A stretch of 34,047 nucleotides of DNA from Ignavibacteria bacterium (GTDB taxonomy: Bacteria; Bacteroidota; Ignavibacteria; UBA10030; F1-140-MAGs086): positions 1-34,047 of the forward strand of contig VGWC01000023.1 in assembly GCA_016873775.1 (NCBI GenBank), in the 5' to 3' direction. The notes below the pieces were generated by a model, which had not been told where the DNA came from, made no database searches, and was given only the letters and a program-made list of their open reading frames with translations. The position numbers and the translations under genes are program-made. Of this stretch, positions 4,260-34,036 are shown piece by piece (the stretch's first letter is position 1; every line of letters starts with the position of its first letter).

Positions 4260-4320
4260 GCCACGAATTGCACGAATTTTTACTAAGATATATTTCGTGT
4301 TAATTCGTGAAATTCGTGGC
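4260..4320. repeat. CACGAATT-word inverted repeat
   Basis: The outer arms GCCACGAATT (4260-4269) and AATTCGTGGC (4311-4320) are exact complements. The pairing continues inward through a second CACGAATT / AATTCGTG copy with one mismatch, giving about 18 of 19 pairs around a variable AT-rich loop. The element fills the gap between glmS and the hicB-like gene. The same word recurs around the GxxExxY gene at 27902-28369. It could act as a terminator-like hairpin, but no T run follows. Confidence 0.85.
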
Positions 4321-8376: not shown

Positions 8377-8437
8377 TTCACGCAAAGGCGCCAAGTCGCA
8401 AAAAATAATTTCTGTTATCTTTGCGGCTTTGCGCGAA
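8377..8437. repeat. CGCAAAG-word inverted repeat
   Basis: TTCACGCAAAGGCGCCAAG (8377-8395) pairs imperfectly with CTTTGCGGCTTTGCGCGAA (8419-8437). It begins on the base after the dehydrogenase stop codon. It shares the two-words-per-arm layout of the other elements. No T run follows. Confidence 0.75.
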
Positions 8438-8447
8438 AAAATACAAA

Positions 8448-8502
8448 ATGAATCTTCTTAATAACTTTCTTCTTTTCTGTTCCACAAATTCGTGGCTGAA
8501 AA
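8448..8502 (+). repeat. Direct repeat copy 1: 5' fragment of a proline dehydrogenase-like gene
   Basis: These 55 bases match 9290-9344 at 51 positions. Both begin with an ATG and encode nearly the same peptide (MNLLNNFLLFCSTNSWLK here, MNLLKNFLLFCSTNSWMK in copy 2). Here the frame degenerates after about 20 codons. The two copies bracket the antitoxin/PIN pair at 8545-9230. They contain CCACAAATTCGTGG, which resembles the CACGAATT word, possibly by chance. Confidence 0.8.
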
Positions 8503-9230: not shown

Positions 9231-9289
9231 TAATTGTTTGATGTACCCATCAAAAAACTCTCTGTGCGAACGCTTTTGTATAGCACACT

Positions 9290-9403
9290 ATGAACCTTCT
9301 CAAAAACTTTCTTCTTTTCTGTTCCACAAATTCGTGGATGAAAAATACGTTACCGAAATATCGTTTTGTGCAACGCGCAGTAAAACGATTTATGCCGGGA
9401 GAA
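9290..9403 (+). pseudogene. 5' remnant of a proline dehydrogenase-like gene (contains direct repeat copy 2)
   Basis: The frame from the ATG at 9290 reads MNLLKNFLLFCSTNSWMK, then LPKYRFVQRAVKRFMPGE, which resembles the N-terminus of monofunctional proline dehydrogenases (an amphipathic start, then a VxRFMPGE-like motif). After the GE at about 9403 the resemblance ends, and the DNA becomes readable on the minus strand as another gene remnant. A plus-strand stop falls at 9449. The first 55 bases duplicate 8448-8502. Proline dehydrogenase is a flavoenzyme of proline catabolism needing about 300 residues, so nothing functional remains. The family call rests on a short stretch and is moderate. Confidence 0.5.
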
Positions 9404-14167: not shown

Positions 14168-14258
14168 AATAGAACACGGATTACACGGATGAAACAGATG
14201 TTCACAGATTTTTAATCCGTGCCGAATCCGTAACAATCTGTGTTATCCGTGTTCTATT
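14168..14258. repeat. CACGGATT-word inverted repeat
   Basis: The 23-base arms at 14168-14190 and 14236-14258 pair at 21 positions (outer AATAGAACACGGAT with ATCCGTGTTCTATT). The interior holds more GAT/ACAGAT words. It fills the space between the YmdB-like gene and folD and ends 14 bases before the folD ATG. It is the best-paired of the word elements. Confidence 0.9.
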
Positions 14259-27901: not shown

Positions 27902-27929
27902 GCCACTAATTTCACTAATTGACACGAAT
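27902..27929 (+). repeat. Left 28-bp direct repeat (CACGAATT family) at the GxxExxY start
   Basis: These 28 bases match 28310-28337 at 27 positions, differing only at base 6 (T here, G there). The repeat runs into the GxxExxY start codon: its last two bases, AT at 27928-27929, are the first two bases of the ATG. Here it is a half-element without the opposing arm, whereas the right copy is the left arm of a palindrome. Confidence 0.9.
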
Positions 27930-28302
27930 GAGTGAATTGATTTACAAAGACGAATCGTATCAAATTGTCGGCGTTTGTATGGAAGTTCATCGACAACTCG
28001 GTAAAGGATTTTTAGAAATTGTTTACAAAGATGCGATTGAATATGAATTTCAAAAGAGAAATATTCCGTTTGAACGAGAGAAGGAATTTTTGATACACTA
28101 CAAAGAAATAACGCTTCCTCATAAATTCTTTGCAGACTTTGTTGCATTCGATAAAATAATTTTAGAAGTGAAATGTGGGAGCGGAATTGCGGAAGAACAT
28201 ATTTCGCAAACGTTGAATTATCTTGCTGTATCGAAACTCAAATTAGGTTTGATTGTAAATTTTGGAAAAGAGTCATTAGAGACAAAAAGAATCGTTTTAT
28301 AA
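27928..28302 (+). CDS. GxxExxY family protein (PD-(D/E)XK-like)
   Basis: The 124-residue protein has the family hallmark GFLEIVYKDAIEYEF (G-x-x-E-x-x-Y) preceded by VCMEVHRQLGKG. It ends its core with ADFVAFDKIILEVKCGSGI, an Asp plus E-V-K arrangement matching a PD-(D/E)XK nuclease site. Conserved HISQTLNYLAVSKLKLGLIVNFG closes the fold (written as HISQTLNYL and KLGLIVNFG). The family's biological role is unknown to my knowledge. I start it at 27928 (MSELIYKDESYQ) rather than the TTG at 27919. The gene is bounded by the 28-bp repeat at its start and by the same repeat within an inverted element seven bases after its stop. Confidence 0.88.
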   Translation: MSELIYKDESYQIVGVCMEVHRQLGKGFLEIVYKDAIEYEFQKRNIPFEREKEFLIHYKEITLPHKFFADFVAFDKIILEVKCGSGIAEEHISQTLNYLAVSKLKLGLIVNFGKESLETKRIVL

Positions 28303-28309
28303 AATATGA

Positions 28310-28369
28310 GCCACGAATTTCACTAATTGACACGAATACTATTTAGTGAAAATTCGTGTAATTCGTGGC
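28310..28369. repeat. CACGAATT-word inverted repeat containing the right 28-bp repeat
   Basis: The outer arms GCCACGAATT (28310-28319) and AATTCGTGGC (28360-28369) pair exactly, as in the element at 4260-4320. The inner words CACTAATT, GACACGAAT and AGTGAAAATTCGTGT pair partly. It lies between the GxxExxY gene and ftcD. The left 28 bases are the direct-repeat partner of 27902-27929. Confidence 0.9.
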
Positions 28370-32285: not shown

Positions 32286-32310
32286 GACACAAAGGCACAA
32301 AGGCACAAAG
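32286..32310 (+). repeat. CACAAAGG direct words before the methyltransferase-nuclease gene
   Basis: Three direct words, GACACAAAG then two GCACAAAG copies, occupy this stretch. It lies between the unrecognised gene and the ATG at 32324. The same word family forms the inverted repeat after the gene at 33973-34036, so the gene is bracketed. Confidence 0.75.
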
Positions 32311-32323
32311 AAAAAAACGCATT

Positions 32324-33972: not shown

Positions 33973-34036
33973 GTGTCTTTGTGCCTTTGTGGTAAAAGAT
34001 GTTCTCGCCACAAAGACACGAAGGCACAAAAGAAAG
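33973..34036. repeat. CACAAAGG-word inverted repeat
   Basis: CTTTGTGCCTTTGTGG (33977-33992) pairs with CCACAAAGACACGAAG (34008-34023) at 14 of 16 positions. Both arms continue outward with more GTGTCTTTG / GGCACAAAAG words. It begins nine bases after the stop of the methyltransferase-nuclease gene and runs almost to the window edge. Confidence 0.85.

Follow-up and report, generated by a model that had tools for sequence, protein, structure and literature searches.

Small enzyme genes and palindromes: described systems and the GxxExxY unit

RAYTs are IS200/IS605-related tyrosine (HUH) transposases, for which a gammaproteobacterial origin and GTAG-type heads were reported (PMC2817692). Their genes are flanked by REPs, and the transposase and REP trees agree (Nunvar 2010, PMC2817692). 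In a second system, the IVS of 23S rRNA, the loop of a palindrome contains a small ORF for an S23/four-helix-bundle protein, and the whole has been described as a selfish element of unclear origin (PMC4990558). We compared these systems, together with MITEs and homing endonucleases, with a GxxExxY gene that stands between palindromic repeats in a window of 34,047 nucleotides (the whole stretch of DNA that was analysed).

The likeness to RAYT/REP systems (REP, BIME, REPIN; REPtrons) lies in a gene for a small enzyme that has its own palindromes on either side, and two further marks, dispersed solo copies and an enzyme tree that matches the repeat sequence, are both met by GxxExxY. However, the GxxExxY enzyme is a PD-(D/E)XK RecB/Cas4-like nuclease and no HUH/Y1 tyrosine transposase, its repeats are inverted tandem CRCNRAK words without a GTAG/CGTC-type tetranucleotide head, and its hosts are mainly Bacteroidota and relatives. 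With an enzyme that is no relative of RAYT and a repeat that is built differently, the unit is not a REPtron, although by analogy it appears to work like one.

The IVS resemble the unit in their small ORF in a palindrome loop, and inverted flank matches were found at 38 of 86 GxxExxY genes. S23 nevertheless belongs to another protein family and lies inside rRNA from which it is removed by RNase III, whereas the window ORF is a PF13366 member between protein genes; S23 genes also have different words, none of the CRCNRAK class. MITEs and other non-autonomous IS derivatives are likewise short palindromes that some genomes have and others lack at an orthologous site, with what looks like their enzyme encoded at another place in the genome. 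The GxxExxY unit, in contrast, is without a transposase of a known family, and its arms consist of word arrays and not of IS ends; a target-site duplication has not been shown for it. Homing endonucleases, including PD-(D/E)XK ones, likewise have a nuclease gene inside its presumed target sequence; the unit differs from them by the lack of an intron or intein, by many dispersed repeats per genome and by empty sites without a repeat. In open full-text papers, which scarcely mention the family, and with subscription journals and preprints outside our scope, we found no link of GxxExxY/PF13366 to repeats and no studied function of the family.

The window ORF encodes a full-length GxxExxY protein (TIGR04256, 1.2e-39, 135.2 bits, cut-off 35). 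The family profile search also matched its positions 2-116 to PF13366 PDDEXK_3 (5e-35, 120.8 bits, cut-off 22), and no other profile matched. Across 50 sequences, E30, Y33, D70, K82, Y98 and N111 were invariant, while E80 and Q94 were conserved in at least 90%. The QxxxY motif marks the RecB/Cas4 group, and the protein met the criterion for a RecB/Cas4-like PD-(D/E)XK enzyme by its D...ExK residues, this motif and its fold. The closest solved folds to its AlphaFold2 model (mean pLDDT 95.9) were SSO0001 (best, E 7e-5), which we take to be a Cas4 nuclease, and the lambda-exonuclease family; no sequence relative was found in the PDB at E up to 1. In close GxxExxY pairs with measurable dS, dN/dS was 0.05-0.11, and the protein is therefore kept functional. 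We rejected a known RNA family or defence protein at the unit, as the sole match of an Rfam scan of the window was a tRNA lying elsewhere, and no anti-phage defence family of PADLOC-DB matched the protein.

Table 1. Features of the GxxExxY unit and solo palindromes in the window
Positions	Strand	Feature	Remarks
27902..27929	+	Left repeat arm, three CAC[T/G]AAT words	27/28 identity with 28310-28337; overlaps first two start-codon bases
27928..28302	+	GxxExxY gene (PF13366/TIGR04256), RecB/Cas4-like PD-(D/E)XK nuclease	Intact E30, D70, E80xK82, Q94xxxY98
28310..28369	.	Full palindrome with a left arm, a short loop and a right arm	Word family of left arm 27902..27929
4260..4320	.	Solo palindromic element, CACGAATT family, without gene	
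14168..14258	.	Solo palindromic element, ACACGGATT words	Family flanking the contig C56 GxxExxY gene; junction in G002 without the element
8379..8436	.	Solo palindromic element, CGCAAAG word family	Family flanking the contig C52 GxxExxY gene

Repeats at GxxExxY genes in the source genome and its relatives

The window gene lies between two direct copies of a 28-bp repeat, GCCACTAATTTCACTAATTGACACGAAT on the left and GCCACGAATTTCACTAATTGACACGAAT on the right, and the left copy supplies the A and T of its ATG (27928-27930). An inverted repeat has the right copy as one of its arms; its outer arms are exact over 10 bp (GCCACGAATT / AATTCGTGGC) and identical to those of the solo element at 4260-4320. 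All the coordinates and counts that the first-pass annotation had given for these repeats hold. The two flanks of the unit aligned to each other with a score of 51, compared with 34 for the best of 182 mismatched flank pairs, and the two-word pattern CACGAATTNCACGAATT, with up to two mismatches, occurred 62 times in the 2.54-Mb genome (reversed control, 0). These counts and controls rule out a chance repeat.

The source genome (G000; 157 contigs) contains four GxxExxY genes, all bracketed on both sides by palindromic repeats in direct orientation, with one kind of word per gene: CACGAATT in the window, CGCAAAG on contig C52, ACACGGATT/ACTGATT on C56 and CGCAGAG on C118. Their flank scores were 51-128, again against a mismatched maximum of 34. 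Solo palindromes of every word family were present, in at least about 18 places for the window family, at least about 18 for C56, at least about 8 for C52 and at least about 3 for C118; these are minimum numbers, as the scoring covered only 40 of the 91 candidates. In each family the solo copies outnumbered the single gene copy. CACGAATT is no general word beside these genes: it is that of the window's protein clade, and the other clades have words of their own.

TIGR04256 was present in 28 of 41 relatives, and among 148 genomes sampled across the phylum 74 had the GxxExxY family. Flanks of 300 bp were compared in the 41 related genomes at a score threshold of 34. We found that 50 of 86 GxxExxY genes were bracketed on both sides by matching repeats, compared with 1 of 316 random genes (Fisher 4e-39) and 0 of 21 PIN genes, so that the enrichment check named beforehand in the first-pass annotation was passed. 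The brackets were direct at 31 and inverted at 38 of the 50 genes, some having both, and about 1% of mismatched GxxExxY flank pairs lay above a threshold of 36. About 42% of GxxExxY genes fell under the two-sided threshold, and short arms were visible by eye in many. The absence of brackets from PIN genes excludes a general trait of small mobile genes.

The sole random gene to pass was the window's PIN gene. With the small ORF before it, likely as a toxin-antitoxin pair, this PIN-domain gene lies between 60-bp direct repeats that are 90% identical (8443-8502 and 9285-9344). Near the contig end, CACAAAGG word arrays (32288-32322 and 34009-34035) flank a DNA methyltransferase whose C-terminal part is Mrr-like.

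Two geometries were seen: a GxxExxY gene either has a complete palindrome at each end or occupies the loop that two inverted arms enclose. The arms are built of tandem CRCNRAK words spaced 8-10 bp apart, as CACNAAT, CACNGAT, CRCNAAG or CRCNGAG arrays. Two or more words of a single class were present on each side at 139 of 188 GxxExxY genes, compared with 1/316 random, 0/21 PIN and 0/28 S23 genes. The word classes were defined after viewing the arms, mostly of the order-level set, and the controls were scored by the identical definition. Across 42 elements, the N position of CACNAAT was not paired above chance (outer 0.57 vs 0.49, inner 0.29 vs 0.44), which rejects a base-paired stem as the conserved feature and favours recognition of a sequence word over a perfect stem.

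S23/four-helix-bundle genes (TIGR02436) number 12 in the source genome. Loci L036-L044 there and L184-L211 in relatives are enclosed by inverted arms made of other tandem words, such as AAGTAGTTGAGTAGTTGAG, AGAGCGTAGAGCAGAG and TAGGTTTTAGGTTTTAG, and inverted flank matches were found at 10 of 28 S23 genes vs 0.5% of mismatched pairs. The junction that holds the 14168-14258 palindrome in the source genome carries a TTTGAGG/CCTCAAA palindrome in a relative (G001:C205 3900-4080, L345). Its words resemble those beside S23 gene L041: two word systems, one intergenic site.

Coupling of the repeat word to the protein

The repeat word follows the protein and not the genome. At 65 bracketed loci, protein and arm similarity across different genomes gave a Spearman coefficient of 0.238, while the maximum of 999 permutations was 0.118. 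For pairs from different genomes in non-homologous context, arms matched in 8% of cases at protein similarity below 0.4 and in 63% at 0.7 or above; shared ancestral location was rejected as the cause, as the effect persists without homologous-context pairs. Over a tree of the proteins from 192 loci, we counted 24 changes of word class, compared with 87 +/- 3.4 (minimum 77) after shuffling, and the order-level loci alone gave 15 changes vs 34 shuffled. Similar proteins in different genomes agreed in word class in 66% of cases, distant proteins within one genome in 10.5%. Genome composition was therefore excluded, because of this low agreement and because each of the four genes of the source genome is in a word class of its own.

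The CACNAAT word was found at 53 of 79 close relatives of the window protein, compared with 1 of 26 loci of other clades, and CACAGATT replaces it in several of the remaining close relatives. These 79 proteins are 62-72% identical to the window protein and come mostly from Bacteroidota and allies, their sources being Bacteroidota, Ignavibacteria, Chlorobiota, records labelled planctomycete, Calditrichota and Methylococcales.

The word-bearing solo repeats occur mainly in genomes with the cognate gene. With one mismatch, GCCACKAATTNCACKAATT was found 38 times in the source genome, 10 times in G018, 6 in G001, 5 each in G008 and G023, 2 in G015 and once in G038, and was absent from 34 other relatives (control, 0). 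A close window-clade gene is carried by G000, G008, G018 and G023, and CACKAATT arms were present in all four, vs 3 of 37 others (p = 3.5e-4, 41 genomes). In G001 (same genus), G015 and G038, such arms were present and no window-clade gene was detected. G033, which has a more distant member of the clade (L114), has a GAT-type word and no CACKAATT arms. The CACTWAG word was predicted for G001 and G032 and had 4 and 12 copies there, but also 6 in G040 and 2 in each of two others, so the prediction is upheld with exceptions; the gene expected with these arms is missing from G040. Where arms stand without a cognate gene, in G001, G015, G038 and G040, the gene could have been lost or the assembly could be incomplete. 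Truncated or interrupted GxxExxY copies, sometimes as two adjoining fragments, were seen in G011, G015, G018, G023, G031 and G032, which suggests frequent birth and decay.

Orthologous sites and the origin of the unit

In the source genome, two genes that we take to be pheS and pheT from reading their sequence are separated by an insert of a hairpin, a GxxExxY gene and a hairpin, with no other gene. The two are adjacent in G002, G004 and G013, where unit and repeat are both absent. At the C118 site, G001 holds only a solo palindrome of a different word. At the C107 site, the source genome has a solo CACGAATT palindrome and G001 a GxxExxY unit with CACTTAG words. The window unit itself has no clean empty site because its two neighbours, a dCTP-deaminase-like gene and a formiminotransferase-cyclodeaminase (FTCD) gene, are not adjacent in relatives. 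Upstream of FTCD, no GxxExxY unit is present in G002 or G004; an independently placed one lies there in G001 (C24 122500-123420, L235), with its own words differing from those of the window. A target-site duplication was not readable at the empty sites because the sister intergenic sequence is too diverged. The first-pass annotation had suggested that repeat, gene and repeat may move as a cassette and had looked to empty sites with one repeat copy. Three relatives are indeed empty at pheS|pheT; over all sites, the empty ones had either no repeat or a repeat of another word, and not the one leftover copy. Together with the flank enrichment, the empty sites support the cassette, of which no movement was observed.

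We propose, with a probability of roughly 0.7, that the GxxExxY gene and its clade-specific word palindromes constitute a small mobile element whose nuclease recognises or processes its own words, in a division of labour like that of RAYT and REP; no binding, cleavage or movement has been observed. Most likely, the nuclease would recognise its own inverted CRCNRAK-type words, which stand about one helical turn apart. Processing of DNA at the words may then lead to the copying or insertion of palindromes and gene units into intergenic sites, and the solo palindromes would be non-autonomous copies dispersed through the genome. What we observed is that gene and repeats go together, that the word is coupled to the protein, that solo copies are dispersed, that orthologous positions have gained or lost elements, and that the protein is under purifying selection and has its catalytic site intact. 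Binding and cutting of the words by the nuclease, as the driver of movement, are inferred.

The alternative that survives best, though we hold it unlikely, is that repeat and gene are one unit spread by host recombination or by the enzyme of another element, the word travelling with the gene merely through joint copying and the solo palindromes being units from which the gene was lost. Such copying would by itself couple word and protein in new contexts too, direct-repeat brackets are prone to recombine with loss of the gene and a single palindrome remaining, and truncated GxxExxY copies do occur. However, the pheS|pheT insert holds no gene besides GxxExxY, the protein is under strong purifying selection with its catalytic site intact, and the solo copies in the source genome outnumber the single gene copy of each family.

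There is little to recommend the idea that the repeats came first as mere targets, and that the nuclease cuts resident solo palindromes into which its gene is copied by recombination. A RecB/Cas4/lambda-exonuclease-like fold is typical of recombination enzymes, and the L-gene-(L-loop-R) order of the window unit is the product expected from one crossover between a gene-plus-repeat circle and a resident repeat. Yet three relatives are without any repeat at pheS|pheT, the sister repeat has a different word at C118 and C107, and a same-word solo repeat was not found in the sister at the three sites that were readable. Least probable of all is that the words serve the GxxExxY protein as operators, around its own gene and at other genes, and do not belong to a mobile element: inverted words 8-10 bp apart do resemble protein-binding sites, and the N of CACNAAT, paired no more than chance would give, suggests that sequence is kept rather than a perfect stem, but the gene is followed by a full palindrome as well, orthologous sites differ in having or lacking whole palindromes and units, and the protein has the fold and residues of a nuclease. 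Specific evidence thus stands against each of the three, and none is fully excluded.

Beyond a mobile element with its own nuclease at this locus, we lean slightly towards a wider reading, that a widespread and undescribed class of mobile element has GxxExxY nucleases as its enzymes, each clade reading a short word of its own and dispersing palindromes built from it, and that S23 proteins, including those of the 23S rRNA IVS, may be a second such enzyme. The link between clade and word gives a common protein family a testable substrate and explains one class of dispersed intergenic palindromes. It would also show that REP-like repeat parasitism has evolved more than once, with unrelated enzymes.
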